DNA of 28,793 nt from a virus. Below, piece by piece: positions 2,869 through 28,641 of this stretch. Position 1 is the first letter of the stretch. Every line of letters begins with the position of its first letter. The notes below the pieces were generated by a model. It was not told the DNA's origin, ran no database searches, and saw only the letters and a program-made list of their open reading frames with translations. The stretch is from positions 1-28,793 of the IMG/VR virus record IMGVR_UViG_3300042562_000944; one strand, given 5' to 3'. The translations under genes were made by a program, and so were the position numbers.

Positions 2869-5210
2869 CGGGCAAACCTGTTCATTCTCATTCGTTGACG
2901 CCTGATCTGTTGCTGGTACATACGCTGCATGTAGAACGTGTTGGTTGAAGCGTTGCCATAGACAGCGTTCAGGTCGTTCGACATCTCGCCTTGCAGGCTC
3001 ATCAAGGCCCGTTGGTTCACAGCACCGTCAGACTGTTTGATGCCATCATAGGAGTTTGAGTTCTCAATCTGGCTCTTGGCATCATCAAAGGCTTGAATGG
3101 CATCCCGGTGAGCTTCGTTGTAAAGCAGCTCAGTAAACCTGTCGAGGCTATTGCGAGATATCCCGGCACGCTTGAGGTCGTCGCTAATCTTGGCCTTGAT
3201 CCGCTTGAGGTACTCGTTGTACTCCGGCCTGTTCTTAGCCGCACGACCCGCCTGAAGCATGTCCGATTTGATCGTTCTGATCCACACGTCGTGGTACTGG
3301 TCAAACATCCTCTGGTCAGGGTTCTTCCGGGCGTCCCGATCCATCGCGTCTTGGTCTTGAACCTGATCCCCGATACGCTTGGCCTCAACAGCGTCAACAC
3401 CCTGCTCGGTCAGCGTTTTTTGCACCTCTCCAGAGACGTCTCTGTTGACTCCGGTGGCTTTTGCCGTTGACCGGATCAGAGCACTGTGCTTGCCAGCGTC
3501 GCGGGCGTCCTTTGCACCGATCACTGCGTTTCGGTTGCCGATGACCTGATCGGCCTTCTGATCGGCCACGTCGCGGCTGTAGCCCAAGTTGACATAATGG
3601 TTGGACGTGGACTGCTTCAAGTCCTCGTCGCCATAACTTTCCATCTCTGACATTTCCCTGTCGCGCTGATTCTGGCGAGTATCGCGACCCAAGGTTCTTG
3701 TCTGGCTCTCGTTTGCCTTGTCCATCATCTGCTGACGTGTGAGCGGCCCGGTGAACTCGCTCCCGCCAGAGGAGGCTCTACGACGCTCTCCAGAGGTCAT
3801 TTCAGCCGCTCGCTGGTTTGCCGCAGCGACAACTTCGGCGGCGTTCTGCTGCTGCTGCATCCCGCCCGGAAGTGGGCCTGTGAAGCTGCTGCCGCCTTCC
3901 TGTTGGGCGGCAATTTGCTCAGGGGTCATGTTCCTAAGTTGTGCTTGGTGCTGCTTGTTGTATTCCACTGTCGCTTTGGCCGCATCGAACGAAGCCTTCA
4001 ACTCCATCATCTGCTTGATGACAGTTGGGCCAAGCAATCGAGCTTCCTTCATGACCAGATCCCAGTCTGGGTCTAAACCCTGCTCGATCTTGGCAATCTC
4101 GGCCAACAACTTGTCTGAAGAGTTGACCTTCTTGGTTTTGACTCTAGTTAGAGCCTCGGCGACACGCCTGTCGTTGGCACTTTCACGACTGTCCGTCCAG
4201 CCAAACTGCCTTGCGGTGAACTGCATCGCATCGCCTGCGCCATACGAAAACTGGTCGTATCCTCTGCCCAGAGCGTCCATCTTCGACCACTCGTCGGACA
4301 CCATGTTGTGGGCGTCAGCCACCTCATTGATGTTTGTCCCTCGCAGCGAAGTGTTGATGCTGCTTCTCAGATTGCTAAACGCTCCAGCCTCACCACGAGA
4401 TTGAGCCATTGCCTGATATGTCGCCCTGCGTGATGCAGTCTCGTCCGACGACAATCTGTAGTCGCGTGTCAGCATATCCATGCCGGACTGTCTGAGGCCG
4501 CTATTTCGATCTCGCTCTGCAAGCGTAGCCTCCATGCCAAACCGATTGGCGTTACCTGTTTCCATGTTCTGGAACTGCTTGCGAAACTCTTCGTTCCGCA
4601 TCCGAGCCAGCTCGTTCTGCGACGCTCCAGTGCCGCCAAAGAGCGATTGCGAAATATTGTTCCTTGCCTCTGGCGACTGCCCCTGCCAAGCGGCGTTAGC
4701 CAGTGGGACGCCAATCGCTGTTGCCAGCAGTGCTGCCTGACCAAGTCCCGGCACACCAAACGCCGCACCCGCCATATTGCCAGCAGCCTGAGCAATCCAC
4801 GGCACGTTGTTCATCGCACCACGCCAGCCAGCGTACTGGTAATCCTCCATCGCAAAGCCGATCTGGGAGAGACCGAACATGCTGGATGTGATCCCGCCGC
4901 CCCACGCACTCTGGGGTGCTCCAAGCCCACCCCTGCTGCCTACGCCACCACCGCTCCCACGGTTCGTGGAGAGAGGGTTTGAAGGGGCAGACCCGACGCC
5001 ACCCCTGCCACCCCCGCGACCACCACCCATCGGATATGGAGACGGCATCCCGCCGCCGCCCATCCCACCGCCCATCCCACCAGCCATCCCGCCGCCACCA
5101 CTGCCGCCCATTGCCGACTGGGCGTTGGTTGCCGCCTGTGACAACAGGTTGAACTGCTGGATCGCCTGCGACAAGTCGGCGTTCATGCGGATATTGACGA
5201 GACGATCCAT
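2865..5210 (-). CDS. Tape-measure protein
   Basis: A 781-residue protein that should set tail length and line the tail tube before ejection. Residues 1-34 form a short helical head. Residues 35-98 are an unusual Gly/Met/Arg-rich low-complexity linker (repeats such as GGMGGGMGGGG). Residues 109-175 are a hydrophobic Gly/Ala segment with the stretch IGFAMEDYQYAG, a pattern I associate with tape-measure proteins that insert into a membrane. The remainder is long, polar and helical with many Gln, Arg and Glu residues. At about 1.5 angstrom per residue, a known rule for these proteins, the tail would be near 115 nm. The ATG at 5210 has an AAGGAG site seven bases upstream. The gene follows the tail-tube gene and overlaps the tail-tip gene. 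Confidence 0.75.
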   Translation of the reverse strand: MDRLVNIRMNADLSQAIQQFNLLSQAATNAQSAMGGSGGGGMAGGMGGGMGGGGMPSPYPMGGGRGGGRGGVGSAPSNPLSTNRGSGGGVGSRGGLGAPQSAWGGGITSSMFGLSQIGFAMEDYQYAGWRGAMNNVPWIAQAAGNMAGAAFGVPGLGQAALLATAIGVPLANAAWQGQSPEARNNISQSLFGGTGASQNELARMRNEEFRKQFQNMETGNANRFGMEATLAERDRNSGLRQSGMDMLTRDYRLSSDETASRRATYQAMAQSRGEAGAFSNLRSSINTSLRGTNINEVADAHNMVSDEWSKMDALGRGYDQFSYGAGDAMQFTARQFGWTDSRESANDRRVAEALTRVKTKKVNSSDKLLAEIAKIEQGLDPDWDLVMKEARLLGPTVIKQMMELKASFDAAKATVEYNKQHQAQLRNMTPEQIAAQQEGGSSFTGPLPGGMQQQQNAAEVVAAANQRAAEMTSGERRRASSGGSEFTGPLTRQQMMDKANESQTRTLGRDTRQNQRDREMSEMESYGDEDLKQSTSNHYVNLGYSRDVADQKADQVIGNRNAVIGAKDARDAGKHSALIRSTAKATGVNRDVSGEVQKTLTEQGVDAVEAKRIGDQVQDQDAMDRDARKNPDQRMFDQYHDVWIRTIKSDMLQAGRAAKNRPEYNEYLKRIKAKISDDLKRAGISRNSLDRFTELLYNEAHRDAIQAFDDAKSQIENSNSYDGIKQSDGAVNQRALMSLQGEMSNDLNAVYGNASTNTFYMQRMYQQQIRRQRMRMNRFAR

Positions 5211-6883: not shown

Positions 6884-7589
6884 GGATGCCCTCGTCTAGG
6901 TCTTGGAGGAAGTAGCCAGTCTGAACCTCGGCGTTGTGCCGCCCCCAGTACCGCAGGCCCGTCAGGTCGCGTGGAGGGATTCGGCCCTGACCGTAGAACA
7001 GGTTGGTCAGGAAAGCCTCTCCACGCTCGTTTGTGACGCCTTCCCACTGACTGGAGACCTGAACGCTCGGCCCACGACTGCCAACGTCATGGGAGACGTA
7101 ATTGGCGATCACACGCGACTGCTCCCAGTTTGGAGCTGTAGGAGGCCCATCCATGCCACGGTAGAGGTCGTAATCCGAGTTCTTGGGGCTTGGCTCATAG
7201 AAGTTGGACTTGTAGGAACCCACAGCCATCGCTCCACCGTACATCATGGGCATTGTCTGTGCGCCCAGGTTGACCTGTGCGGCGTAACTGTGGTGATCTC
7301 TGGGTATCTCGCTGAAAAAGAAGAATGATCGCCCTGACGCAGCTTGCTTTCGCTGCGTGATGCCGTTCTTGCCCAGAGGATTGACGCCTGAACCGGAGTA
7401 TCGGTACTTGGTCGGGGCCAGCTTGGACGAGTAGCCGTCCGTACCATTGAGCACGCCCACACGATTGTCTTCCAGCAGGACGAGCTGAAGTCGGCTGGAG
7501 AGATCCATCGCGTACTGATCCATCCGGGCCAGACGGTCAAGACTGGCCTCCAGTTGGTCAAAATCAACGCTGGGCGACAGGGAGATCAT
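6876..7589 (-). CDS. Putative neck / tail-completion protein
   Basis: A 237-residue protein whose ATG at 7589 overlaps the upstream stop (ATGA). The N-terminus is helical (residues 8-40, DQLEASLDRLARMDQY). A central Ser/Tyr/Gly-rich region follows, and the C-terminus reads IPPRDLTGLRYWGRHN. That ending recalls the Pro-Arg-containing C-terminal segment of phage morphogenesis proteins of the gpG/gpS tail-completion type, where a PxR motif is followed by a helix. The likeness is loose. Its location between the connector-like gene and the tail terminator-like gene supports a role at the head-tail junction. Alternative: a virion protein without a standard equivalent. Confidence 0.4.
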   Translation of the reverse strand: MISLSPSVDFDQLEASLDRLARMDQYAMDLSSRLQLVLLEDNRVGVLNGTDGYSSKLAPTKYRYSGSGVNPLGKNGITQRKQAASGRSFFFFSEIPRDHHSYAAQVNLGAQTMPMMYGGAMAVGSYKSNFYEPSPKNSDYDLYRGMDGPPTAPNWEQSRVIANYVSHDVGSRGPSVQVSSQWEGVTNERGEAFLTNLFYGQGRIPPRDLTGLRYWGRHNAEVQTGYFLQDLDEGILA

Positions 7590-8514: not shown

Positions 8515-9624
8515 TTACTTCGGCAGAGGCTCAGACTGAAGGATCACGCCGAACTCTGGACGGAAGACCATGTCTCCGTACAGGGTGTCGAAGCTGATCT
8601 CCCAGCGGAACTTCTGACGGTTGTAGGTCAGCATGAATCGGATTGGCACGCCCTTATACATCGCCATCGAGGCTTGGACGCCAGACTCTGGGCCGGGCAG
8701 CTCAAGAGGACGATAAGCGACCGCGATGGCACGCTTGTGGAACAGGAACGAGCGGTAAGACTTGTAGCCAGCGTCGACATTTGTGGCGTCAACGATGTTG
8801 TTCTGCGTGTCGCCAGCAGGGATGTCGGCGGCATCGTTGTAGGCAATCGGAGCGTCGAGGTCGTAGTCAGCAATGACGCCGAACACCTGACCAACCATCG
8901 CGGATCGACGGACGGAGCCAGCGATCTCGTAGCCGACAGCAGAGGCCAAGGCCCAGTTGTCGTCTGTCAGGAAGTAGGTGTAGGTTTCAGGGTGAACCAC
9001 AGCATGGACGTTGCCGAAGTCCCGGACAGGAGCTTTGGCCTGAACCATTGCTGACCAGCCCTTGGCGAAGTCCACGACGTCCAGCTTGGCGTTGGCTGAG
9101 GTTGTCGAAGCCTTGATGACCTTGAAACCTTCAATCCCCGCAGCAGCAGGCCGGATCAGCTTGGTGATCTGACGGTTCATGTACGTCCCGAAGGACTTGA
9201 TGGCTTCGTCAACGAACATCTCGCGGAGCTGGCCGGGATGAGCCGAGAAAGCCTTCTCCAGATCATAGATCGGGAAAGCCATCGTCGGGTGGTACTTCAG
9301 CTCCAGATCGCGTGTGAGCGTCTGCGGGGCATCATACTCGATGCTGTCACCCACCGCCACGTCACGGACGGTGAAGTCCGATTTCGGGAAGTTCATGGTG
9401 ATCTTCTTGCCTTGGTAGCCCGTATCGCCCATGTCGATATCGGTGTAGGCAAGGTCGAGGAACAAGTTTGGCCCGACAAGTGCCGCTTCAGCCTGCGTAA
9501 ACGCAGTGATGATGTTGGCGTAAAGTTGATTGAGCGAGAACGGAAGCGACGTGTTGTTGGTGATCGCACCCGTGCTGCCGTTTACGCTTGATTTCCACAA
9601 GCCCTTAACTGGTTCTGTCGCCAT
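8515..9624 (-). CDS. Major capsid protein, HK97 fold, P22-like
   Basis: A 369-residue protein immediately after the scaffold gene. Residues 75-130 (KSDFTVRDVAVGDSIEYDAP followed by a segment containing KYHPTMAFPIYDLEKAF) fit the E-loop and adjacent region of P22-type coat proteins. The C-terminal part, with FHKRAIAVAYRPLELPG then GVPIRFMLTYNRQKFRWEIS, is typical of this coat family, where a conserved strand precedes the P-domain close. The length is somewhat shorter than P22 coat (430). A GGAG site lies ten bases before the ATG at 9624, an unusually long spacing. A separate coiled-coil scaffold upstream supports a P22-like assembly scheme rather than an HK97-type delta domain. Confidence 0.85.
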   Translation of the reverse strand: MATEPVKGLWKSSVNGSTGAITNNTSLPFSLNQLYANIITAFTQAEAALVGPNLFLDLAYTDIDMGDTGYQGKKITMNFPKSDFTVRDVAVGDSIEYDAPQTLTRDLELKYHPTMAFPIYDLEKAFSAHPGQLREMFVDEAIKSFGTYMNRQITKLIRPAAAGIEGFKVIKASTTSANAKLDVVDFAKGWSAMVQAKAPVRDFGNVHAVVHPETYTYFLTDDNWALASAVGYEIAGSVRRSAMVGQVFGVIADYDLDAPIAYNDAADIPAGDTQNNIVDATNVDAGYKSYRSFLFHKRAIAVAYRPLELPGPESGVQASMAMYKGVPIRFMLTYNRQKFRWEISFDTLYGDMVFRPEFGVILQSEPLPK

Positions 9625-9656: not shown

Positions 9657-10415
9657 CTATTCGCTGCTGGTGAACTGCGCCCCAGACTCGACAGCCGCCG
9701 CTATAGCCTTTTGATTGGCTGCAATCCATTTGGGGTCTTGAAATCGACCTTGGATTGCCTGCGGAGGTGGAGATATGGGGACGCCCCGTGAAGCCACTTG
9801 AGACCAGCCTTGTGGGGGAGTTGGAGCAGGGTTCATTCCCGGCCCACCACGCCCTGTAAAACCACTTGGCTGCACGAATCCCTGTTGGACTCCACTGCCC
9901 ACACCCTGTGGGCCTGTCTGGTACTGGTTCGACGGCATCGACTGCGATACATCCTTGCCCATGAACAGGAACGGAGCCTGTTGCTTTGCGGCCCCCAAGA
10001 CCTCATTGACGAGTTCTGGGGATAACTCTTCAACTTGGAACGGGTCATACCCGACCATTTGCCAGAGCTGATCAAGGCTGGCCTGCGGGTGCAGACCTGT
10101 GTCGCCAAGCATCTGCTTGAACGCTTCCTTGTGTTGATCAAGGAAACTCTGCCGTCGATAGTCCTCTAATTCCTGCGGTATGTTTTGAGCCTGACTTTCA
10201 AGCTCAAGACGATAGTCGTCCAGCTCTACGAGTGCGGTTTCGTACTCTTCGAACTTGGTCTGATACTCGGCCAGTTGACCGTCTCGTTCGGCAAGCTGTT
10301 GCTTGAGTGCCGCAATCTCTTCGCTGGCCTTTTGCAATTGCTTGCGCTTGGAACGAGCGTCCTGATTGGCATCATGAAGCATGTTGCGGTAACGACCGAT
10401 ATCATCTTCTGGCAT
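9657..10415 (-). CDS. Capsid scaffold protein
   Basis: A 252-residue protein directly upstream of the capsid gene. Residues 10-75 form a long coiled coil (KQLQKASEEIAALKQQLAER region), residues 85-145 are helical and acidic, and residues 150-220 are a Gly/Pro/Gln-rich flexible linker. The C-terminus (IQGRFQDPKWIAANQKAIAA) is a short helix with basic residues, like the capsid-binding end of known scaffolds. Position, size, coiled coil and charge all fit a scaffolding protein. It begins 41 bases after the -10 element of a promoter-like site in the gap upstream, so scaffold and capsid may be transcribed from their own start. The SD before the ATG at 10415 is weak (AAGAG, seven bases). Confidence 0.8.
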   Translation of the reverse strand: MPEDDIGRYRNMLHDANQDARSKRKQLQKASEEIAALKQQLAERDGQLAEYQTKFEEYETALVELDDYRLELESQAQNIPQELEDYRRQSFLDQHKEAFKQMLGDTGLHPQASLDQLWQMVGYDPFQVEELSPELVNEVLGAAKQQAPFLFMGKDVSQSMPSNQYQTGPQGVGSGVQQGFVQPSGFTGRGGPGMNPAPTPPQGWSQVASRGVPISPPPQAIQGRFQDPKWIAANQKAIAAAVESGAQFTSSE

Positions 10416-10455
10416 GACTGTACTCTTGTGTTGGTGTCAGATGTCAACGTAATTG

Positions 10456-10484
10456 AGTGTACGCTGGTGTCACACTAATGTCAA
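10456..10484 (-). promoter_or_regulatory. Sigma70-like promoter before scaffold gene
   Basis: On the minus strand TTGACA (10484-10479) is followed after 17 bases by TACACT (10461-10456). The predicted start near 10449 gives a short leader before the scaffold ATG at 10415. The spacer contains CACCAG at the same distance from the -35 box as in the promoter at 28614-28641. A second TTGACAT copy lies at 10447-10442 just downstream, too near the ATG to serve the scaffold gene. Confidence 0.6.
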
Positions 10485-10506
10485 TAGTGTTCGTTCATGT
10501 TACACA

Positions 10507-10953
10507 TCAGCCTCGGTTTTTCTTGCGAGAGTAGACTCGCTCACGAGCACGCTTCACGACAGGATTTGAGAGGATTTTAGCCATCTGCGCTCTTTGAAGC
10601 TGGCTGAAATCACTGATGGAAGTGTAGAAAGTCCCATCATCCCTGTTGGCAGCATATGCGTAACCGTCAATAAGTCTGGACTGGTTTGGGTACTTGGCCC
10701 TCATCTTTTCAAACACGGTGCCGTCTCTTGCCTCATGATCACGCTGCCTGAACTTAAGTCCGTGAGTCTCCATCTCGTCGTAAATCTGTCGCTGCTCCCT
10801 GATAGACTTCGCCTCATTAAACTCCATAATTCTGTCGTAGTTCTGCGAATCTGATATACGTTTGCCGCGATGGTAGAACGAGCCTCCGTGATATCCAACC
10901 ATAGGCTGTTTTGCCGGAGCTGGGGTTTGCCCTGTACCCCCAGCCCCTGTCAT
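10507..10953 (-). CDS. Hypothetical protein, 148 aa
   Basis: A 148-residue protein whose ATG at 10953 overlaps the stop of the long basic protein (ATGA). The first 15 residues are Gly/Pro/Ala-rich and probably disordered. The rest is charged and helical, with RIMEFNEAKSIREQRQIYDE and a basic tail ending in RARERVYSRKKNRG. Family not recognised. Coupling to the basic AT-hook gene and the position just before the scaffold promoter suggest an internal head or assembly protein. The basic C-terminus may bind nucleic acid or the capsid interior. No membrane segment or signal peptide is visible. Confidence 0.6.
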   Translation of the reverse strand: MTGAGGTGQTPAPAKQPMVGYHGGSFYHRGKRISDSQNYDRIMEFNEAKSIREQRQIYDEMETHGLKFRQRDHEARDGTVFEKMRAKYPNQSRLIDGYAYAANRDDGTFYTSISDFSQLQRAQMAKILSNPVVKRARERVYSRKKNRG

Positions 10954-13154
10954 TTTCCCACGCTGCCATTCTTAGGTTTATTGGTGCTTCCCTTTGGCCT
11001 GCCACGTCCCCTGCTGGTAGTCTCGTCAAGGTTGAACTGTGGCCGTGGTGGCCCAACAGCGGCACTTGCTCGCTGCATAACTTGTAAGTGTACTTGCTTC
11101 TGCTCTTCAGCCTGCCTTGCACCGGCTCTTGCAACATACGCCCTTTCGCCCTTTATCTTGCCCTTGTGCCACACCTTTTCAGTTGCGGTAGCCGGGCGTC
11201 CACCTCTGGCAGCTTTAGCCTTCGACACGACGTCAGACACTCTCGCTGACATGCTGGGCGTCATGACCCCGGTTGCCGTGTAATGCACATCTTCTATCCA
11301 CCTTTTGTACCCACCGTCAGACTGGAAGTGAGCTGCCTTCATCACGGTTCGAGTCCGGGGCGACGCTGGAGTTGTCCGTAAGCCAGCTCCGGAACCCTCC
11401 TTGTTCTCGTAGAAGCCAGCTATAGAGTCGCGGGTTGCTCTCGCCTGACGTGAAGCAAGAGCACCCCTTGCTCGCGTCTTTAGATTCCACCGGGTCGAAC
11501 CGTTGGCACTCGCACTTTGCCAAGGGGCCGTGATCGTAGGCGTAGGCTTTGGGTTAGGCGTAAGCGGTCTTGGCTTGAGTGGGGTAATGTTTGCCGGAGT
11601 GCCAGCCATCGCCTGCCCACGACCAGAAGCCTGACCCATGAACGACCCGGACGACGCCGACTTGGTGTGTATGGACGGAGCCGGAGCGTTCTGGCGTAGA
11701 GGGTGGGGCTGACCCTTCTGTTTCTTGATCGACATGTATGTGGACTGGCGTGCCTTTTGCAGCACGACGTTGCGGCCCATTGGCGTTTTAGCCGGAGCCT
11801 GAGGAGCTTGTGGCTTCGGAGCCTGACCACGATACACGCCGCCATTCTGGGCGTTCTTGATACGCACAGCCTGTACGACCGAATTGTTGCCCATTGGCGT
11901 GAACTTGCCAGCTTGACCAAACCCTGCGGCTCGCGTCATGCGGGGTGACTTCATGGCAGCATCACTGGCAACCTTCATTCGTGCAGATGCCGCGATATTG
12001 CTTTTGACGCCGTTGACGATCGCCTTGCCACCGTGGTAGACAGCCAGCGACGGTGCAGCAGCAGCGTAGCCTACACCCTTGCCGATGCCCATGAAGACCT
12101 TCTCGGCCCCACGGTTGAACCTTTCGATTCCCGGCATCACGCGATTGTTCGCGGCGTTCATCGCGTAGGACTTTGCGGTCTGAAGCGTGCGATTGAACTT
12201 GGCAGCGTCCCTGAACCCGCCAGCAACCTTGCCAGCCGTGCTTATCAAGCCGCCAACAGCCCTGCGAGACGCAGAGAACATTGACCGAGTCGCATTACCC
12301 GGAGCGTCCTGAATGGCGTTTACACCCTGTACGGTTCTTCTTGCGGCCTTTCCTACACCATAGCCAGCCGCTGTGGTCAAAGCAGTTGCGTGTGACACCC
12401 GTGTGACAGACTTGTTTATTCCAGATGGATCGGCGTAACGCTGGGCAGAATACACCTTGCTGAGAGATGCGTCAGGCATACGACTGCCCATCCTGACGCC
12501 TTGGCCGAACGTCTTGCCCTTTGCAGCAGTAGCCGACAATGCGGCCCTAGGGGCGTTCCGCACAGCACTGGCAACGCTCTCAGCCCTCATGCCCAGCTTT
12601 GCACCACCGCCGACAATATTGTTTGCTCCACGGTTGACCGACGCTGCCACCGCAGTGCCACGCTGCACAGCTCTTTCCCTGATGGCCGACACGACAGCGG
12701 ACGCCTTCTGCTTGGCAAGATCCGTGCGGGTTTCAAGACCTGTACGCTGGCCGGGGTTGTTGGCTGCGACGTTACGCTTGTAGGCTCTGGCAACCGAGCG
12801 AGTCCCCACGTTGTAGCCAGCCCTGTTCATCACCCCGTAGCCAGCCGGAGCCTTGGCTGACTTGAGAGCGGCCACCGTATTCTGGCGGGTTTGCTGGAGT
12901 GTAGCACCAGCCTTCTTTGACTGGTTTGCGGCAGTCTGCTTGATGTTGCCGCCAGACCCCTTCAGCCCCTTGTCAGAGCTTGTGCCGTGGGCGTACCCAG
13001 CTCCACCCGCCTTGGCACGGGCCTTCTGTACCAAGCTGACAGTGCCTTCACGGATCGTGCGTGCCGATGACCGGATTCTGCTGCCAGTAGTGTTGGACGT
13101 TCCACCCATCTTGGTGGAAGGGTTACGCATAGACCGCATGAATCGCATTGGCAT
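10950..13154 (-). CDS. Large basic AT-hook protein, putative DNA-condensing head protein
   Basis: A 734-residue protein, very rich in Ala, Gly, Lys, Arg and Asn, with few acidic residues. In the first 220 residues I count about six acidic against roughly 45 basic. The sequence is helical but low in complexity, like histone-like or internal head proteins. The last 20 residues contain RGRGRPKGSTNKPK, a canonical AT-hook core (RGRP flanked by basic residues), and a GGRP motif lies about 80 residues earlier. Two related blocks occur near the middle (TPMGNNSVVQAVR and TPMGRNVVLQKAR). The ATG at 13154 is preferred over an in-frame TTG at 13166 because TGAGG lies six bases before it. It sits between the cysteine peptidase and scaffold genes. 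The likely role is binding packaged DNA, or ejection with it; this is inference. Confidence 0.7.
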   Translation of the reverse strand: MPMRFMRSMRNPSTKMGGTSNTTGSRIRSSARTIREGTVSLVQKARAKAGGAGYAHGTSSDKGLKGSGGNIKQTAANQSKKAGATLQQTRQNTVAALKSAKAPAGYGVMNRAGYNVGTRSVARAYKRNVAANNPGQRTGLETRTDLAKQKASAVVSAIRERAVQRGTAVAASVNRGANNIVGGGAKLGMRAESVASAVRNAPRAALSATAAKGKTFGQGVRMGSRMPDASLSKVYSAQRYADPSGINKSVTRVSHATALTTAAGYGVGKAARRTVQGVNAIQDAPGNATRSMFSASRRAVGGLISTAGKVAGGFRDAAKFNRTLQTAKSYAMNAANNRVMPGIERFNRGAEKVFMGIGKGVGYAAAAPSLAVYHGGKAIVNGVKSNIAASARMKVASDAAMKSPRMTRAAGFGQAGKFTPMGNNSVVQAVRIKNAQNGGVYRGQAPKPQAPQAPAKTPMGRNVVLQKARQSTYMSIKKQKGQPHPLRQNAPAPSIHTKSASSGSFMGQASGRGQAMAGTPANITPLKPRPLTPNPKPTPTITAPWQSASANGSTRWNLKTRARGALASRQARATRDSIAGFYENKEGSGAGLRTTPASPRTRTVMKAAHFQSDGGYKRWIEDVHYTATGVMTPSMSARVSDVVSKAKAARGGRPATATEKVWHKGKIKGERAYVARAGARQAEEQKQVHLQVMQRASAAVGPPRPQFNLDETTSRGRGRPKGSTNKPKNGSVGK

Positions 13155-13166
13155 CGGACACCTCAA

Positions 13167-13304
13167 TCACTCAGACTTGGACTTGGGCTTGAGCTTCTTG
13201 ACTTGCTTGGTGGGATCAGACTTGGCCGGAACCGTGAGGATCATCCTCAGAGGCGGCTTTGGTCTGCCGGGGTTCAACTTCTGACTGGGTAAATGGGCCA
13301 TCAT
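13167..13304 (-). CDS. Small basic protein, 45 aa
   Basis: A short gene that starts with two consecutive ATG codons at 13304 and 13301, the first overlapping the upstream stop (ATGA). It ends at the TGA at 13167-13169, thirteen bases before the next ATG. The product is about 45 residues, Pro-rich in the middle (NPGRPKPPLR) and Lys-rich at the end (KQVKKLKPKSKSE). It is strongly basic like the next gene product, so it may also contact DNA or the capsid interior. No family is recognised. Overlap at the start and tight fit are the evidence for expression. Confidence 0.6.
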   Translation of the reverse strand: MMAHLPSQKLNPGRPKPPLRMILTVPAKSDPTKQVKKLKPKSKSE

Positions 13305-13564
13305 GTTCCATCCGCAATACGTTTGATGATCTTGTCGGGTACTGTTTTCAGCTTGATCTGTCGCTGACTGTTGTTGATCCTGCCGCCTGTGGGCCTGACT
13401 TCCGTGTCGTCTGGATAAACACCTATCGGTAAAACCGCAGCCCCTCCTGCGTCAAGCGTCGCCAGCGGAGGCTCCGTTACGTCCGGTGCAGGTGGCTCGA
13501 TGATAGGCTCAACCACTGGTTCAGCCACTGGTTCAACTGGTGGTTCAACTGGCACGTCCGACAT
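13301..13564 (-). CDS. Small protein with Pro-Val-Glu repeat, 87 aa
   Basis: An 87-residue protein. Residues 3-33 form a PVEP-type repeat (PVEPPVEPVAEPVVEPIIEP), encoded by imperfect tandem DNA repeats at about 13465-13560, and are expected to be an extended acidic rod. The C-terminal 30 residues are basic (SQRQIKLKTVPDKIIKRI). The gene is preceded by an exceptionally strong ribosome binding site (13565-13578). Strong translation suggests a structural or decoration-type protein made in quantity, but no family is recognised. The acidic Pro-rich N-terminus recalls the start of the 817-residue fibre gene. Possible roles include a linker or scaffold between head components. Confidence 0.65.
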   Translation of the reverse strand: MSDVPVEPPVEPVAEPVVEPIIEPPAPDVTEPPLATLDAGGAAVLPIGVYPDDTEVRPTGGRINNSQRQIKLKTVPDKIIKRIADGT

Positions 13565-13578
13565 GGATCACCTCCTTA
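13565..13578 (-). promoter_or_regulatory. Full-length anti-16S ribosome binding site
   Basis: The minus strand reads TAAGGAGGTGATCC immediately before the ATG at 13564. This is the exact complement of the 14-base 3' end of bacterial 16S rRNA (GGATCACCTCCTTA). Its first three bases are also the stop codon of the C1 peptidase gene. GGAGG lies six bases from the ATG, the best spacing. It is by far the strongest SD in the window. Confidence 0.9.
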
Positions 13579-14475
13579 GAAGTTCAGCTTGGTAAGGGAC
13601 AAATCTTTCTCACTCCACTGCTCAAGATCAGCCAGAGCGAATGAGTCGCCCTGTGCCAGCATCCTGTTGACCGTGTCCTTATCTACCCACTTGGTAGCCG
13701 GAGACATCCCCTTTGGCCCACCTGTGTAGTAAGCACCCCAACTGTTCGCCATCAATGCCCCCGGACGGTCGTGTCTGACCCCCAGAGCCGCGAAGCAATG
13801 GCCCCAGACCTGTGTGGCTGGAGCGAACCCATCCGCATCACGGCGTCTGTCAAAGCCCAGATTGCTGGAGACGATGACTGGGTAGCCGGACTCAATCGCC
13901 AGTGCCAGCTCATCAAACGTCCTGACCTGTGCGTAGCTCTTCACCTGACGATTGCGAGCAATGGACTTGATGCCCTGAGGGACACCCCTTGAGCCAGCAG
14001 GCCCACAGCAGATGTTGGGGTCGTACACGCTCAGGTCGATCTCAGGGTACTTGGCCTGTATCACCGTGCCGAAGTCCTTGGCGTATTTCACCGTCCATGC
14101 GACATATGTGCCGTGGTATGGCAGGGAGTTGCCGCCAATCTCCACCCGACTCCCCCAGTAGAGCGTCACCGGATCTGTGCGCCCTGGCTGTGACTTCTCG
14201 CCAGATTCGACCAACCTGATCGCCGCCAGAGCGTCACACGCCAGTGCCACCGAGAACGAGACGCACGCACCACAGATCCCTTGGTGCATGTACCACCTGT
14301 CGCCAAACACCTTATTGAGGTAGAGCGTCAAGTCTGTCCTGACAGGCGACTTGCGGTCGCCCTTCAGGTGGTCAGACACAGGCTTGATTCCGTCTGTCCT
14401 GATGACAGCCCGAACCGCTGCCGGGTTGGAGATCCAGCCTTGCCCAAACTCAAGTGGTTTGAAGTCCAAGCTCAC
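13576..14475 (-). CDS. Papain-like C1 cysteine peptidase
   Basis: A 299-residue protein with all hallmarks of peptidase family C1. The oxyanion glutamine and catalytic cysteine are in MHQGICGACVSF (Gln65, Cys71, with Cys68 as the usual extra cysteine), the catalytic histidine is His226 in VWGHCFAALGV, and the asparagine is Asn244 in MANSWGAYY. The first 55 residues could act as a short propeptide. There is no signal peptide. The start is GTG at 14475, overlapping the TGA of the secreted-protein gene (GTGA). The peptidase lies in the head gene region, where phages usually carry a serine-type maturation protease, and none of those is visible here. Head maturation is one possibility; degradation of host proteins or of a virion component is another. 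Confidence 0.85.
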   Translation of the reverse strand: MSLDFKPLEFGQGWISNPAAVRAVIRTDGIKPVSDHLKGDRKSPVRTDLTLYLNKVFGDRWYMHQGICGACVSFSVALACDALAAIRLVESGEKSQPGRTDPVTLYWGSRVEIGGNSLPYHGTYVAWTVKYAKDFGTVIQAKYPEIDLSVYDPNICCGPAGSRGVPQGIKSIARNRQVKSYAQVRTFDELALAIESGYPVIVSSNLGFDRRRDADGFAPATQVWGHCFAALGVRHDRPGALMANSWGAYYTGGPKGMSPATKWVDKDTVNRMLAQGDSFALADLEQWSEKDLSLTKLNF

Positions 14476-21068: not shown

Positions 21069-21622
21069 TAGAAGTTACCCCCGTCTGTGATTGTGGACTC
21101 TGGAAGATTGACCCACTTGGAAAGAGCCTTGTTGTAGATCGGGACGTCTCTCGCTGAGAGTCCCGTGAAGACGACATCTGAAAGTGCTTCAAACGTGAGC
21201 TTTGACGGATCGGCTGGCTTGTAGCCCAGTGCCGTTTCGATATCTGAGGCTGTGACCGTCTGTGCAGGCTGGCCCTGTGGCCCCTGCGGCCCGGTTGGCC
21301 CAGTGGCTCCGGTTGCCCCGGTCAGAGGCCCGGCATTGACCCACTTGGCCGGAGCCGGGCTTGCAGACCAGACATAGCAGTCCTGCGTCGCCTCATTGAT
21401 GTAGTAGTCGCCACCAGTGTTGCCAGTTGCAGGAAGCCCGGCCTCACTTGTGACTGTGCCTTTGAAGACAAGGCCCAGTCCCGTTGCCCCGGTTGCCCCG
21501 GTTGGCCCCTGAGCACCCTGCAATCCCGTATCGCCCTTGTCGCCCTGCGGCCCAACTGGCCCGACGCCAAAGTTCTGCCCGACACGGATCGCAACCTTCT
21601 CCCATTTTGACAGGTCAGGCAT
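21068..21622 (-). CDS. Collagen-like fibre protein
   Basis: A 184-residue protein that starts at the ATG at 21622, preceded by AGGAGA six bases upstream; a longer GTG-started frame is not needed. Two Gly-X-Y blocks form collagen-like triple helices: about residues 20-49 (GPVGPQGDKGDTGLQGAQGP and on) and 100-118 (GATGATGPTGPQGPQG). Between them is a short globular domain with FKGTVTSEAGLPATGNTGGD and YYINEATQDCYVW, a common phage module that sits between collagen stretches. The C-terminal domain ends in STITDGGNF. Collagen stretches usually stiffen trimeric phage fibres. It lies between the BppU-like gene and the 382-residue fibre and is coupled to both. Confidence 0.8.
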   Translation of the reverse strand: MPDLSKWEKVAIRVGQNFGVGPVGPQGDKGDTGLQGAQGPTGATGATGLGLVFKGTVTSEAGLPATGNTGGDYYINEATQDCYVWSASPAPAKWVNAGPLTGATGATGPTGPQGPQGQPAQTVTASDIETALGYKPADPSKLTFEALSDVVFTGLSARDVPIYNKALSKWVNLPESTITDGGNF

Positions 21623-21992
21623 ATTGGTTCTCCTCGCACTGACAAGCCGCCAACTGGCTATTGACATCAATGCAGCCACGGACGAGCGTCAGGGTGTATC
21701 CAGACTGGTCAATGGCAACGACAGAATACTTGTAAGACCCCACGGGCATATCCTGTGAATATCGGCTGAAATCGACAGTGATCCTGCCTGCTTCGGCATT
21801 GATAACGGACACGATCCCCAGCACAAAACCGTTCGGGTTGACGCTGACGGGGACGTAAAGTGTCGCCCTGAATCCCAGTCCAGTCAGGTCAACGGGAAGG
21901 CCGCTTGACCTATCCACAAACTCCAACGCCCATCGGTAAGAATCGCCCTCAATGAAATCGCCGTTCTTGATGGCAGCGTCTTGGTCAAGCAT
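21615..21992 (-). CDS. BppU-like tail fibre N-terminal domain protein
   Basis: A 125-residue protein. The ATG at 21992 is chosen over a GTG at 21998 because AAGGAGG lies six bases before the ATG and abuts the GTG. The sequence IKNGDFIEGDSYRWALEFVD then GLPVDLTGLGFRATLYV is the pattern of the beta-sandwich domain of baseplate upper proteins and related fibre adaptors (G-x-P-V-D-L-T-G signature). It also has a conserved-looking strand GRITVDFSRYSQDMPVGSYK. In other phages this domain links fibres to the baseplate. It is coupled to the collagen-like gene by an eight-base overlap. The C-terminus has three Cys and ends CQCEENQYA. Confidence 0.65.
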   Translation of the reverse strand: MLDQDAAIKNGDFIEGDSYRWALEFVDRSSGLPVDLTGLGFRATLYVPVSVNPNGFVLGIVSVINAEAGRITVDFSRYSQDMPVGSYKYSVVAIDQSGYTLTLVRGCIDVNSQLAACQCEENQYA

Positions 21993-22140
21993 CGCCACCC
22001 TCCTTGAGCGGAATGGCTATCGGAGGCTTGGGTTCGTCTGGCGGACGAACTGGAGGAGGTGGCACGACACCATCGTTCTTGATCCTCAGTGCGGCCCGTC
22101 TGCGGCTTCTGCGAATGACAACGAGATTAATCTTCCCCAC
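21985..22140 (-). CDS. Small basic, Pro-rich protein, 51 aa
   Basis: A short gene overlapping the end of the portal gene. I place the start at a GTG at 22140 because GGAGGTAACA precedes it with a correct SD distance; an ATG at 22170 would extend the overlap and lacks such a site. The 51 residues begin with a basic stretch (VVIRRSRRRAALRIK), then a Pro-rich tail (PPPPVRPPDEPKPPIAIP). No family is recognised. The arginine cluster suggests nucleic-acid or capsid binding. Its stop lies inside the start of the next gene (eight-base overlap). Confidence 0.5.
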   Translation of the reverse strand: MGKINLVVIRRSRRRAALRIKNDGVVPPPPVRPPDEPKPPIAIPLKEGGDA

Positions 22141-23692
22141 TGTTACCTCCGGGAGCTGGTGGTGGAGCATACTGGGCCTGTAGAGCCATCTGCTGCTCTT
22201 GGATCTGCATCTGGGCCTGTGCCACGATCATTTCTTCCTGATTGAGCTGCGTGAGCGTCATCTCGACCTTGAGCATCGCTTCGTCTTCTGTCAGTTGCTC
22301 GTTGTCCATGATGATCTGAACCCGGCTTGCGAGCTGGTTCTGGAGCAGGAACGCATCGTGGGAGTCCCTGTCAGGGCCGGGCCTGTTCTTGGTCATGGGA
22401 GGCCAGCGGAACGTCATGGAGAGGTTCGTCGATGCAGCCAAGAGGAGCTTCGGATCTATGACCGGACGGCTCTTGAACGAGGATATCTGGGCTGCGGCAG
22501 CAATGAGCGTAATGCGTGCCAGCTCCGTCTCGTACCGCTCAAAGGCCACCTGACGGTTCTCGGCCTCTTCGATGAGCGGCAACTGCTCGGACTGGATCGC
22601 AATGCCTGACGTGCCACCCTGCTGCTCCATCCTGATGGCCGATGGTGGAATGCCCAGCATCTCCAAGGAGAGGTCGATATAGGCTGTCAGGTCGTTCCAG
22701 TCGATGGTCGTAAACGAGGTGTCAGGGTACAGCCAGCCCAGTTCAGCCTCTGGCCCTTCGCCTTGGGCATTGAACGCATTGGGCAGGGTGACGAACTCAT
22801 CAGGCCGCATATTGGTTGGCACAACAAACTGCGGAGGGCAGTTCTTGGCGAAACCCTTGGGCCTCAGGTTCATGATCTGGTCGGAAAGATCCGTCAGACG
22901 CCTGACAACGTGTATGTTCAGGTCTCTCAGAGCCTTGCCTACGCCCGGACTCCAGAAGTAGTTGACAGGCTGCTCGTAGTGGAAGAACGCGAATGGGATC
23001 ACGCCCAGATAATTGACGCCGCTCTCCATCAGCTCGGCCTTGCCCTCGACAACCCTGTAGGTCGAGATATCGCGTGCCGTGTAGACCGTCGTAACGAACT
23101 GGTCATCACCGTAGGTCGAGAGCGTTGCCACCGCCACAGGCGTCTTGGAGTCCGTGGACGCGAACATCGGGACGATCTCTGAACCGTCCCACAACCGGAA
23201 CTTGACCGGGCTTGCCGCAGGGTCTGGCGAGAAGTTGGGGTAAACCTCCACCGCTGCCACGTCAGTCACATAGGTGGAGCGGTCTGCCGCCTGTACGATG
23301 GCTCCGACACCCTCGCGCCTGTAGAGGTCTTCCAGATAGATGGCGACATCCGGGAACGCCGGGATCATCCGCTTGGGCTGGTTCTTGTACAGGTACTTCG
23401 ACAATACCGATACGGCACGCTTCATGATGACGCTGTACCGCCAGACTTTCCTTGGCACAGCACTGCCGTTCATTGACGCGAACACATCATCGAACTCGGC
23501 ATTGTACGCCTGCTTGTTCTTCAGGTGCTCGGTAATGCGGGGATACTCGGTCTCAAACCCGTTGTTGACGTGCTTGACAATATCCTCTGGAGACTCAATC
23601 GTGGTTGGGGAGTATCGCCCGAAAGCCTTGCCAGCATTGCTGCCCAAGAGCTTGGAGGATGAACCAAACAGTGATCTCGTCTCTATGGGCAT
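22127..23692 (-). CDS. Portal protein
   Basis: A 521-residue protein downstream of the large terminase, the normal site of the portal. It would form the dodecameric ring at the capsid vertex through which DNA is packaged and ejected. The visible pattern fits: a helical N-terminus with KVWRYSVIMKRAVSVLSKYL, a beta-rich wing (VAAVEVYPNFSPDP), then a long stem and crown. The segment LGIPPSAIRMEQQGGTSGIA, followed by an acidic helix, is typical of the portal stem with the S/T-G-x-A/S motif that precedes the tunnel loop. The C-terminus is Gln-rich (IVAQAQMQIQEQQMALQAQ), probably the barrel or disordered tail. The SD is weak (AGGCG, ten bases). Confidence 0.85.
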   Translation of the reverse strand: MPIETRSLFGSSSKLLGSNAGKAFGRYSPTTIESPEDIVKHVNNGFETEYPRITEHLKNKQAYNAEFDDVFASMNGSAVPRKVWRYSVIMKRAVSVLSKYLYKNQPKRMIPAFPDVAIYLEDLYRREGVGAIVQAADRSTYVTDVAAVEVYPNFSPDPAASPVKFRLWDGSEIVPMFASTDSKTPVAVATLSTYGDDQFVTTVYTARDISTYRVVEGKAELMESGVNYLGVIPFAFFHYEQPVNYFWSPGVGKALRDLNIHVVRRLTDLSDQIMNLRPKGFAKNCPPQFVVPTNMRPDEFVTLPNAFNAQGEGPEAELGWLYPDTSFTTIDWNDLTAYIDLSLEMLGIPPSAIRMEQQGGTSGIAIQSEQLPLIEEAENRQVAFERYETELARITLIAAAAQISSFKSRPVIDPKLLLAASTNLSMTFRWPPMTKNRPGPDRDSHDAFLLQNQLASRVQIIMDNEQLTEDEAMLKVEMTLTQLNQEEMIVAQAQMQIQEQQMALQAQYAPPPAPGGNSGED

Positions 23693-23736
23693 GAGTGATA
23701 CGCCTGAGTGGAGGTATACAATCTTAACACCATAAA

Positions 23737-23765
23737 ATTGTCACCATCGTGGCAACTGGTGTCAA
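23737..23765 (-). promoter_or_regulatory. Possible promoter before portal gene
   Basis: In the 108-base gap between terminase and portal, TTGACA (23765-23760) is followed after 17 bases by GACAAT (23742-23737), a four-of-six match to a -10 box. GACACCAG overlaps the -35 box, as in the two other promoter-like sites. The -10 match is only fair. Confidence 0.4.
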
Positions 23766-23784
23766 GACAAATATTCCACGACAG

Positions 23785-23808
23785 ATATATTACCCGTGAG
23801 TTATATAT
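23785..23808 (-). other. AT-rich inverted repeat at terminase stop
   Basis: ATATATTAC, six-base loop, GTTATATAT: nine-base arms with one mismatch, overlapping the terminase stop codon. No U-tract follows on the minus strand, so it is not a clear terminator. It may modestly affect mRNA ends or be a chance AT-rich stretch. Confidence 0.3.
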
Positions 23809-25177
23809 TTGGGTAAGCCCACGACATTGCCGTCGCATCCGCATAATCGGGAGAGTGGCCCAGACTGGCGACGATATCCTCTTTCGGGATGATGCAGATC
23901 CGGTCGGAACTGTCTACTATATAGCGTGTTGCGGAGAGTTCGGGTCTCAGCAGCTTGGTGTACTTAGGCGCGATCGAGAACCGGCTCGGCCAAGCTCCGT
24001 TGGGGTCAAGTCTCTGCCGCATGTTCCAGTAGCTTGCTGCCTTGAGGTTGGCATGGATCTTGCCGGAGTACCGCTGTCCCTGAAAGCCAGTCGCCCCATA
24101 GATACCCACTGATTCCAGACGGTGCTGGAAGTCCATCCCGACGCCCGGCATGTCCCATACGACGTGTTGTGGGGCAATCCCGAAGCGGGTGAACATCTCA
24201 TAGGCCCGACGTGCCGTTTCGCCCATATCCCACTCGTTGGAGCTGACCATCTCCAAGATCCCATTGTCATCACGCACGACAAGTACGGTCTTGTCGTTCC
24301 CAGAGCCTGTCGAAAGGTCAATTCCGAGCCTTCTAGGCCCACTTGGAGTCCAGACGACGCTCTCACAGGCATTCAACCAGTCCTGTGGGATCACGACCTC
24401 GCTACCTGATGTCGGAAACTCGGCTTCAACGTGGGCTTGCCACCATAATGAGCCGACACCGTAGTCCATCTTGCACTTCTCAAGCCAGTTCTTGCACGCC
24501 AGACCCCGATTGGAGTGTGGTACGACGATATCCGGGCTTTCTGTGCTCTTGATCGTGATGAGGTTCGTGCCGGGCGTCTGGTGAGCACGCAGGCAACGCT
24601 CGTAAAACACGCCTTCAGGACGCAGTGGGTTGCCAATCAGCAGCATCCTGTGCGGAATGAGACTGTCTGCCGCCTCAAAGATCTCTCTGGATACGCCCGA
24701 CGCCTCATCGACGATCACCGCCAGCCGTGCCGAGTGGTGGCCTGAGAACCGTTCAGCCGTGGTGGTCGAGTAGGCCAGAATGAACCACGTCGGGCTGACT
24801 TCCAGCTTCAGGTCAGGGCTACGACTGAGGCGTGCGTTATCAAACAGGAGGTACGGGCAGTTGTTGTACGCCTCCACGATGTTCGCCCACAGCACTTCTC
24901 GGAGCTGCGTGTGACTGGGGGCAGTGCAGATCACCTTGGCTCCGGGGTTCATCGCCAGATAGTGCAGGGCTGCTGCTGCCAGAGCGTAGGACTTGCCGAC
25001 CGAGTTACCCGCCTTACAGAGTGTAACTGGGAACCTCTGAAAGCTCTCCAGAATCGACGCCTGCTTCGTCCAGAGCTTGTGACGCCTCAGGATCGTCCGG
25101 TTGAACCTCACCGGATCCGTCCTGCATCGCTCCCACTCCTGCTTGATCCACGGAGGATTGGACTTCTGAGCCACCAT
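23801..25177 (-). CDS. terL: Terminase large subunit
   Basis: A 458-residue DNA-packaging motor. The ATPase domain has Walker A AGNSVGKS (56-63) and Walker B LAVIVDEAS (152-160, Asp157 Glu158), plus coupling motif LLIGNP (179-184). A Q-motif-like Trp-Thr-Lys-Gln lies at 36-39. The RNase H-like nuclease domain has GIDLS (Asp287), VWDMPGVG (Asp342) and SPDYADA (Asp444, Asp447) as metal-binding acidic residues. The length is normal. The ATG at 25177 is supported by the N-terminal motif (TDPVRFNRTIL), although the SD, AAGGTG, is nine bases away. The upstream small gene overlaps it by 164 bases. It packages DNA into the procapsid through the portal encoded next. Confidence 0.93.
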   Translation of the reverse strand: MVAQKSNPPWIKQEWERCRTDPVRFNRTILRRHKLWTKQASILESFQRFPVTLCKAGNSVGKSYALAAAALHYLAMNPGAKVICTAPSHTQLREVLWANIVEAYNNCPYLLFDNARLSRSPDLKLEVSPTWFILAYSTTTAERFSGHHSARLAVIVDEASGVSREIFEAADSLIPHRMLLIGNPLRPEGVFYERCLRAHQTPGTNLITIKSTESPDIVVPHSNRGLACKNWLEKCKMDYGVGSLWWQAHVEAEFPTSGSEVVIPQDWLNACESVVWTPSGPRRLGIDLSTGSGNDKTVLVVRDDNGILEMVSSNEWDMGETARRAYEMFTRFGIAPQHVVWDMPGVGMDFQHRLESVGIYGATGFQGQRYSGKIHANLKAASYWNMRQRLDPNGAWPSRFSIAPKYTKLLRPELSATRYIVDSSDRICIIPKEDIVASLGHSPDYADATAMSWAYPNI

Positions 25178-26918: not shown

Positions 26919-28538
26919 TTAGTTGGTCTTGGCGTTTTGGCGTTTGTAGCGCTTGATTGCCGATCCGGTCAATCTGGCGTGGTGAAAGTCCAGATAATTG
27001 AGAAATAAAACATCCGGTGCGGTGGCGTATGTGTTGGGGTCTGGCTCCAAGCTCCAAAGGACTAGGCTCATGGCAAGCTCTAGGCGTGCTAGTAGGCTTG
27101 GGGCAGTCCATGCCGACCGTGGGAATCTGAGTTCGATCCGGCCGTATTTCGCTGACAGGTCACGCGCTCTTGGGTCGGATAGGTTGCGGATTGCCACGGC
27201 TCCGGTCTTTCGGCCATCATAGTCACCTTTGGCAACCTTGATAGGCTTCTTGGCGGCGTTGTTATAGTAGGCTCCTGGGATTCGGCCAAATAGGTTCTTG
27301 GCGTGGTCTTGCCCGTTGTGGTCGTTGTCCAGATAGTCGGTTATGGCGGTCAATCGGTAGATGCTGCGTTGGTTCATCGCGGAGTGTGGGAAACTGATAT
27401 GTAAGCCGATCGCCTCATTTCCTCTCATAGTGTGGTCGTCAAATAGGCTTTCGTATGATTCAGCCACCTCGCTATCTGTAAAGATTGCTCTGAGTGTTTC
27501 CATCCGGAGATACGGTGTTTTGATTTCGAAACCGTGGCTATTTGATAGGCTGCCATCTGGTTCACTTGTGGCAACGTAACGCGAACGTGTATAGGGCAAG
27601 GTTTCGCTCGTCCATTGGTCGTGGGCTGCTGCGGTCATGTTGTCGATTAAAGTTTCTAGGGCCCCATAGCGTCCCCGTCCCGATTCGTTCGCCTCTCCCT
27701 CGATCTCAATTGCAAGCGGCACGGGATAAGCCGATTTAGCCTGTCTCTCTGGTGTCCAGTCCGCGTATCTATCGTGCAAGGTGGGCTGATAGTATCTCTC
27801 TGAGCGTTCGTAGTCTGTGTAGCAAGATTCACACAATGTACAGTCGTTGGCGCAATGAGATTCTTCTGAATGATGCCATTCGTTACACTCTTCACACTGG
27901 TTGTAGTCTTCAAGGCAATTGGTACAGACTGTGTTATATCGGTCAACGGTGATCGTGTGTTCGGTATCCTGGTAACACGCGCACTGGCTGCAACGGGTTA
28001 AATTCTCGTCAATATAATCCTCCGTCACATACTGGGTGTCTGTCCGATTGCGGCGGTGGTTTACTACTTCGATTTCTTCGGATTCATCCACCCAGATGTT
28101 TTTGTCCATCAATTCGCTGTAGATAAGTGCATCCTGCAAGTCTTCAATTACCTCATCTTCACTGATAAAGTCGTTGTCAATCCATAATCCGGCGGTGTCA
28201 TGTTGTGTGGTGTATTGGCGTATGTGTGCTTTGCGGTATGATTCGTGGTGTTGGGCGATTTGACGTTCATCGCCTGATGTCATTCGGATTGAAACGGATT
28301 GAAAGTTAAACCATGCTAGGCTGTATTGAGCGTAAAACGATTGTAAGATTGCGGCGGGAAAGTTCTCCGGTGTCCATCGTCGCAAGCGATAGGCTAAGTT
28401 AGTTTTGATGCTGTCTAGGTGGTACGGGCCGTAAATATCGACCATGATAAAAATCAGGTCTGTCATGCTGTCAGTGTTAATTTCACTGGTTGTACTGAAT
28501 GGCTTGACGGGTGCGGCGGTGTAAACTGTGCTATTCAT
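26919..28538 (-). CDS. Amidoligase-like protein with cysteine-rich zinc-binding region
   Basis: A 539-residue protein starting at the ATG at 28538 (AAGGA six bases upstream); a longer frame to 28634 would overlap the promoter. Residues 183-239 hold eleven Cys in CxxC pairs (CSQC, CTNC, CEEC, CESC) plus several His, enough for two or three zinc sites. Residues 275-475 follow the putative amidoligase pattern (glutamine synthetase/GCS superfamily): LAIEIEGE (Glu278, 280, 282), EPDGSL (Asp328), HGFEIKTP (Glu338), IGLHISF (His380) and YGRIELRFP (Arg467, Glu469, Arg471). Such enzymes form amide bonds between carboxylates and amines using ATP. The substrate is unknown. The gene has its own promoter and terminator and appears AT-richer than the rest. 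Confidence 0.7.
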   Translation of the reverse strand: MNSTVYTAAPVKPFSTTSEINTDSMTDLIFIMVDIYGPYHLDSIKTNLAYRLRRWTPENFPAAILQSFYAQYSLAWFNFQSVSIRMTSGDERQIAQHHESYRKAHIRQYTTQHDTAGLWIDNDFISEDEVIEDLQDALIYSELMDKNIWVDESEEIEVVNHRRNRTDTQYVTEDYIDENLTRCSQCACYQDTEHTITVDRYNTVCTNCLEDYNQCEECNEWHHSEESHCANDCTLCESCYTDYERSERYYQPTLHDRYADWTPERQAKSAYPVPLAIEIEGEANESGRGRYGALETLIDNMTAAAHDQWTSETLPYTRSRYVATSEPDGSLSNSHGFEIKTPYLRMETLRAIFTDSEVAESYESLFDDHTMRGNEAIGLHISFPHSAMNQRSIYRLTAITDYLDNDHNGQDHAKNLFGRIPGAYYNNAAKKPIKVAKGDYDGRKTGAVAIRNLSDPRARDLSAKYGRIELRFPRSAWTAPSLLARLELAMSLVLWSLEPDPNTYATAPDVLFLNYLDFHHARLTGSAIKRYKRQNAKTN

Positions 28539-28613
28539 GTTCTGTCCTTGTTCTGGGTTCTGTCTTCGTGTTGTCTCCGGATATCCTCCGGCGGTGGGTT
28601 TCCCCCGACCTGA

Positions 28614-28641
28614 ATGATATCTGGTGCCAAGCAAATGTCAA
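28614..28641 (-). promoter_or_regulatory. Sigma70-like promoter of amidoligase-like gene
   Basis: TTGACA (28641-28636), a 16-base spacer, and TATCAT (28619-28614): a perfect -35 and five-of-six -10 box. Expected start is near 28607, giving a leader of about 70 bases before the ATG at 28538. TGTCA-N6-TGACA forms an inverted repeat across the -35 box (28636-28651), a possible operator. Confidence 0.75.

Follow-up and report, generated by a model that had tools for sequence, protein, structure and literature searches.

A tailed phage represented by an IMG/VR record of 28,793 bases (hereafter the window, meaning the whole stretch of DNA analyzed) was shown by sequence comparison to carry, at a syntenic position in its head module, a gene for a long and strongly basic protein. 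The charge of this protein is conserved, its gene is coupled or fused to the gene downstream, and the downstream gene contains a cassette that has been swapped between near-identical phages. We tentatively favor the explanation that the product is a DNA-bound internal head protein that is recruited by the scaffold or portal, ejected with the genome, and equipped with a variable C-terminal effector cassette.

The basic gene and its head-module context

The genes of the window are ordered on the minus strand as terminase, portal, fibers, papain-like peptidase, basic gene, scaffold, major capsid protein (MCP), and tail genes. The terminase was called from a PHROGs match (8e-35) together with tblastn, and the portal gene (22127-23692) was assigned from its position and a weak PHROG match (0.054). 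The scaffold protein (9657-10415, minus strand; 252 aa, pI 4.8) matched PF06810 at 1.3e-09, and the MCP (8515-9624, minus strand) matched phrog_283 at 2.2e-16 and PF11651 at 6.4e-06. As the original prediction had it, the basic gene (10950-13154, minus strand) lies between the cysteine peptidase and scaffold genes, with the scaffold and MCP genes downstream, and is flanked on the same strand by two genes for further basic proteins, one of 45 aa immediately upstream (13167-13304; pI 10.8) and one of 148 aa downstream (10507-10953; pI 9.9). The upstream context also includes a small acidic, Pro/Glu-rich protein (13301-13564, minus strand; 87 aa, pI 4.4). Elsewhere in the window, about 500 bp between the portal gene and the first fiber gene (21620-22126) contain partly open frames that suggest a small gene, and positions 26919-28634 encode an acidic 571-aa protein whose middle part contains several CxxC pairs and which has no convincing Pfam or PHROG match.

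Repeated viral scans confined the relatives of the basic gene to two IMG/VR contigs, UViG_3300042945_002518 (L003) and UViG_3300042565_001276 (L004 and L012). No further relatives were found in scans of the genome collection, and tblastn with the whole protein and with its N-terminus gave no match in 50,697 phage records. The comparison set consisted of three genomes, two of them near-identical; L012 is 99.5-99.9% identical to the window across 20 kb. The homologue in L003 (4640-6739) encodes 699 aa with 36% identity to the window protein. In the window and in L003 alike, the basic gene is located between the portal and scaffold/MCP genes, the fiber and peptidase genes being inserted after the portal, and a small basic ORF precedes the homologue in L003 in the same place as the 45-aa gene. 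The neighboring papain-like cysteine peptidase (13576-14475, minus strand) also keeps its position in L003, where the positional counterpart (3637-4434) matches Peptidase_C1 at 3.4e-12 and shares the QGxxGAC, His, and NSWG motifs with the window protein. A C1A papain-like peptidase, which may serve in lysis, at the envelope, or in the maturation of head proteins, is encoded between the fiber and head genes of both lineages, in sequences that are hardly alignable (23%).

In the relative G001, the terminase has 82% identity to that of the window. Close to the end of this contig lie the terminase and portal-like genes, which appear to continue into the fiber and head genes at its beginning, and the contig looks like a circularly permuted genome of 42.9 kb, by which measure the window would be about two thirds of a genome. 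Since G001 carries a tyrosine recombinase gene (L010:5613-6608; Phage_integrase 2.6e-17), the phage group may be temperate; the window, probably incomplete, showed no tyrosine recombinase gene.

The 734-residue reading frame was found where it had been predicted, with an ATG at 13154, a stop codon at 10950, and a Shine-Dalgarno-like GAGG ahead of the start. The probability of 734 open codons arising by chance at 56% GC is approximately 6e-13. Antisense shadow ORFs in GC-rich phages reach pI 11-12, as illustrated by a 509-aa antisense ORF on the minus strand of MW202496 with a net charge of +73, and we therefore applied a separate coding test. The values of pN and pS between the window and L003 were 0.49 and 0.74 over the whole gene, and 0.29 and 0.90 over the first 57 codons. 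A shadow-ORF artefact was rejected because the gene shares the strand of its neighbors, faces no comparable competing ORF, and has a syntenic homologue in L003 with pN below pS.

The predicted excess of basic over acidic residues is borne out by 121 Lys and Arg (16.5%) against 26 Asp and Glu (3.5%), giving a net charge of +95 and a calculated pI of 11.8, the highest among the tabulated window genes. The protein contains no Cys, and its charge is distributed over the full length (+6 to +17 per 100 residues). Gly/Ala-rich repeats had also been described. The richness is real (27.5% Gly plus Ala), but there is no notable tandem array, and the best internal self-match was no better than those of shuffled sequences. 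No transmembrane segment was found (best 19-residue hydropathy, 1.1), and some of the basic Ala/Gly-rich stretches include amphipathic helices. The AlphaFold2 model (mean pLDDT 33) has a helical N-terminal half of low confidence and an unstructured middle, and is compatible with disorder without proving it.

Promoter-like sites occur 5' of the scaffold gene in both lineages, in the window at the 3' end of the basic-protein unit (10456-10484, minus strand) and in L003 at 7419-7447; L003 has a further site at 4431-4459, 5' of its basic unit. The number of such matches was not above that in shuffled sequences, and the positions alone are suggestive. TTGACA is present at 10484 and 10447 before the scaffold gene (region 10416-10506), an TTGACACCAG-type site is present at 23765 before the portal gene (region 23693-23800), and TGACACC elements similar to the window sites precede the basic unit and the scaffold gene in L003. 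These sites may possibly represent a shared late promoter motif.

Conserved charge and retained motifs

Between the window and L003, the basic protein is far more divergent (36% identity) than the terminase (82%), MCP (77%), and scaffold (67%), marking it as the fast-evolving gene of the module. Its bulk properties are nearly constant: the two proteins have 734 and 699 residues, 121 and 118 Lys plus Arg, 26 and 24 Asp plus Glu, pI 11.8 in both, and no Cys in either, and their amino-acid compositions correlate at r = 0.96. Basic residues have turned over extensively, with 57 positions kept, 48 lost, and 43 gained, and the net charge is still +95 and +94. This constancy despite turnover suggests that selection appears to act on the charge rather than on the sequence.

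Against this background, a few features are retained. The segment of residues 1-36 (13047-13154, minus strand), which includes MRSMRNPSTKMGGTSNTTGSRIRSSARTIRE, is near-invariant, with the highest identity and the lowest pN of the protein, and is a candidate head-targeting or protein-contact segment. The AT-hook predicted at the C-terminus was recovered as GRPKGST at residues 718-724 (GRPKGSTNKPK) within the AT-hook-like motif RGRGRPKGSTNKPK (residues 715-728; 10971-11012, minus strand), which at the motif level has the GRP core and flanking basic residues of an AT-hook. The pattern GRP[KR]G[ST] arises in 0.1% of composition shuffles, and L003 keeps GRPKGSTDKAK at its C-terminus, although the surroundings have diverged. 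Single AT-hook-like motifs also occur elsewhere among phage proteins, one of them a terminase small subunit, so the motif alone does not imply packaging. Two copies of a TPxGxNxxxQxxR motif, at residues 419-431 (11862-11900, minus strand) and 457-469 (11748-11786, minus strand), have counterparts at residues 437 and 476 in L003; the spacing is 38-39 residues in both homologues, and as a repeat alone the pair is not above shuffles. Overall, the pattern of retained features fits a long polycation with a few specific contacts.

An exchangeable cassette downstream of the basic gene

The 148-aa downstream gene (10507-10953, minus strand) overlaps the basic gene by ATGA. In L004/L012, the two are a single in-frame ORF of 870 aa, and in L003 a different basic gene of 222 aa overlaps the basic-gene homologue by GTGA; homology between the 222-aa and 148-aa genes was undetected. 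That the basic gene is fused to its downstream neighbor in one genome and overlaps it in the others suggests that both products act together, and we argue from this arrangement that the 148-aa gene belongs to the basic-gene unit and that its product is probably an exchangeable C-terminal cassette.

Comparison of the window with L012 located a hypervariable cassette of about 342 bp within this gene (10508-10849, minus strand). The downstream gene differs by 145 substitutions and 82 indel positions and is the only strongly divergent stretch over 20 kb, whereas nearly every other gene compared has 0-9 substitutions. The exception is the terminase large subunit gene with 28 substitutions, 22 of them at third codon positions; most fall within 24755-25154, a second, smaller cluster of differences that suggests a separate recombination tract. 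The limits of the cassette swap are sharp, lying at about 10849 within the 148-aa gene and at the stop codon at 10507, so that the last ~115 codons are replaced. The two alleles are 41% identical overall; the first ~35 residues are common to both, as are an RAKYP..SR block and an NPxxKRARxRV end, and the remaining sequence differs.

A sequencing or assembly chimera is an unlikely source of this difference, because the L012 allele retains the frame, the N-terminal part, the RAKYP and NPxxKRARxRV blocks, the stop codon, and the downstream promoter region. A diversity-generating retroelement was set aside owing to the many indels and to differences at more than one base. Searches of the cassette for a toxin domain or an anti-defense match detected none, and Foldseek matches to its structure model (pLDDT 60) all had E > 1. 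The unit has a constant N-terminal part and a swapped C-terminal part, an arrangement reminiscent of MuF polymorphic toxins, but no toxin domain was recognized in it.

Candidate roles of the basic protein

The basic protein had no match in Pfam, PHROGs, NCBIfam, PADLOC, or the PDB, and an HU/IHF, H-NS, Lsr2, or histone domain was absent from it in Pfam, NCBIfam, and PDB sequence searches. No Pfam match to a MuF domain (PF04233/PF06152) was obtained at E<=1, and the traits of ejection proteins, namely membrane-spanning segments and a PHROG or Pfam profile match, were lacking. Among the window proteins scanned, neither a MuF protein nor a prohead protease family was recognized, the nearby peptidase being papain-like.

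We also compared the locus by position with the phages Hiyaa, Galactica, PSonyx, and Morgana, whose MCPs weakly match the window MCP (E 5e-5 to 0.1). Each encodes a minor capsid or MuF-type protein of 352-372 aa in the slot between portal and scaffold, with a net charge of +12 to +24 as against +95 for the basic protein. Their portal and scaffold profiles did not match the window, so that, with MCP matches this weak, the argument from the slot is positional and not one of homology. Comparison with the four slot proteins by hhalign gave E 0.61 (probability 0.1%) for the basic protein and E 0.094 (probability 0.6%) for the cassette. The negative Pfam and profile comparisons speak against MuF membership, and by the tests applied the basic protein is not a MuF protein, a T7/P22-type ejection protein, or a folded histone-like protein. 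We propose that it represents a new, unnamed family of putative virion-internal head proteins, and a packaged, DNA-bound internal role appears more likely than membership of any known family.

The original prediction of a histone-like protein packaged with the genome, or of an internal protein ejected with it, is thus upheld in part. The head-module position by the scaffold, the steady charge, the AT-hook, the lack of a transmembrane segment, and the MuF slot speak for it; against it stand the lack of a recognizable DNA-binding fold in the AlphaFold2 model and of a characterized homologue. In the mechanism that we propose, the protein would be made late from the unit immediately 5' of the scaffold and capsid genes, and its conserved N-terminal segment, its charge, or both would let the acidic scaffold or the portal draw it into the prohead. 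There it would remain as a largely disordered or helical polycation covering part of the packaged DNA, aided by the C-terminal AT-hook, and it would enter the cell together with the DNA. The 148-aa product would be a variable payload, an effector or counter-defense domain traded among phages in a manner that we liken to the exchange of T4 internal proteins or of MuF C-terminal extensions. From recruitment onward, every step of this mechanism is something that we infer from the features described above, including the binding of DNA, packaging, ejection, and the effector role.

Several known systems resemble this proposal in part. The T4 internal proteins are basic, packaged, DNA-binding, ejected, and variable among relatives, and one of them, IPI, counters restriction (PMC9026906). 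IPI, IPII, and IPIII (and Alt) would share with the basic protein an association with the head core, ejection, DNA binding, and poor conservation, as well as the basic character observed here. However, the T4 proteins are of 8-20 kDa and carry a targeting propeptide of 10-19 residues cleaved by the gp21 protease, whereas the basic protein is of 77 kDa, has an AT-hook, matches no profile, and is accompanied by no recognized prohead protease. MuF/SPP1 gp7 proteins occupy the portal-scaffold slot; SPP1 gp7 binds DNA and is targeted to the procapsid, and variants of the family carry diverse C-terminal extensions (PMC6316719, PMC5576092). The basic protein lacks the MuF domain, is much longer and more basic, and may have its variable part in a separate overlapping gene. 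The podovirus ejection proteins T7 gp14-16 and P22 gp7/gp16/gp20 are internal, helix-rich, fast-evolving, and mosaic, and some bind DNA (PMC8954989), but T7 gp14 and gp16 contain segments that span the membrane and form a DNA conduit, in contrast to a protein that lacks transmembrane segments and is extremely positively charged. The crassvirus cargo proteins gp45 and gp46 of phi-crAss001 are large proteins that reside in the capsid, for the most part giving no clear density, and that are expected to leave it in a partly unfolded state (PMC10172136). Of these, gp45 binds the portal and has a predicted transmembrane helix, and no sequence relation of either to the basic protein was found. Among viral DNA-condensing core proteins, adenovirus protein VII is also a virus-encoded basic protein on a packaged genome (PMC5491326), although it belongs to an animal virus with another packaging route and shows no homology.

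The features that point to a packaged protein also bear on other roles. Charge, an AT-hook, and the lack of Cys would suit any bulk DNA binder, and a single AT-hook is typical of regulatory DNA-binding proteins. The product could then be a late, non-virion nucleoid-binding protein that covers the DNA of the host or the phage within the cell, outside the head, silencing host transcription or readying concatemers for packaging, with a variable partner adapting it to different hosts. We regard this as rather unlikely, since in both lineages the gene adjoins the scaffold and capsid genes and not replication or takeover genes, and since its slot is the one that related phages fill with MuF minor head proteins.

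The same slot, together with the lack of a MuF protein among the window proteins scanned, would suit a low-copy minor head protein bound to the portal in place of MuF/SPP1 gp7, touching DNA at the portal and not in bulk, and needed for efficient infection. SPP1 gp7 is itself DNA-binding, is targeted via the portal into the procapsid, and supports infection, and proteins of its type can carry C-terminal toxins (PMC6316719, PMC5576092). This role is doubtful given the lack of MuF similarity in the Pfam and profile comparisons, a length twice that of MuF proteins with a far more basic composition, and the fiber and peptidase genes that separate the basic gene from the portal gene. Improbable, too, is an assembly co-factor, a polycation that would pair with the acidic scaffold in the construction or sizing of the prohead core and leave before or during packaging. 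The adjacent scaffold gene and the near-invariant N-terminus, which suggests a protein contact, are consistent with such a co-factor, but it would leave the AT-hook and the hypervariable cassette unexplained and would evolve much faster than the scaffold and MCP that it served. A cationic, membrane-active factor that acts in lysis or on the envelope and forms part of the upstream peptidase cassette is very improbable. Only small genes and short gaps intervene between the peptidase and basic genes, and the Ala/Gly-rich basic stretches contain some amphipathic helices, but the protein has no transmembrane segment, carries an AT-hook, is, at 734 aa, very large for a protein of this kind, and in L003 is separated from the peptidase by a promoter-like site.

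The preferred reading, a packaged and ejected DNA-bound internal protein, would acquire a broader meaning if the unit were an effector platform independent of MuF, in which a polycationic AT-hook tether on packaged DNA carries a fused or co-translated swappable cassette, probably with a counter-defense or anti-competitor role; we consider this extension unlikely on present indications. If the basic protein is packaged, a dsDNA phage would carry a large polycation with its genome, which would bear on the management of DNA pressure and ejection. In addition, the protein would be a delivery vehicle with no relation to MuF or the T4 internal proteins, and its cargo segment could be identified by comparison of near-identical strains. 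The swapped 340-bp cassette offers a concrete candidate for a counter-defense or effector domain.
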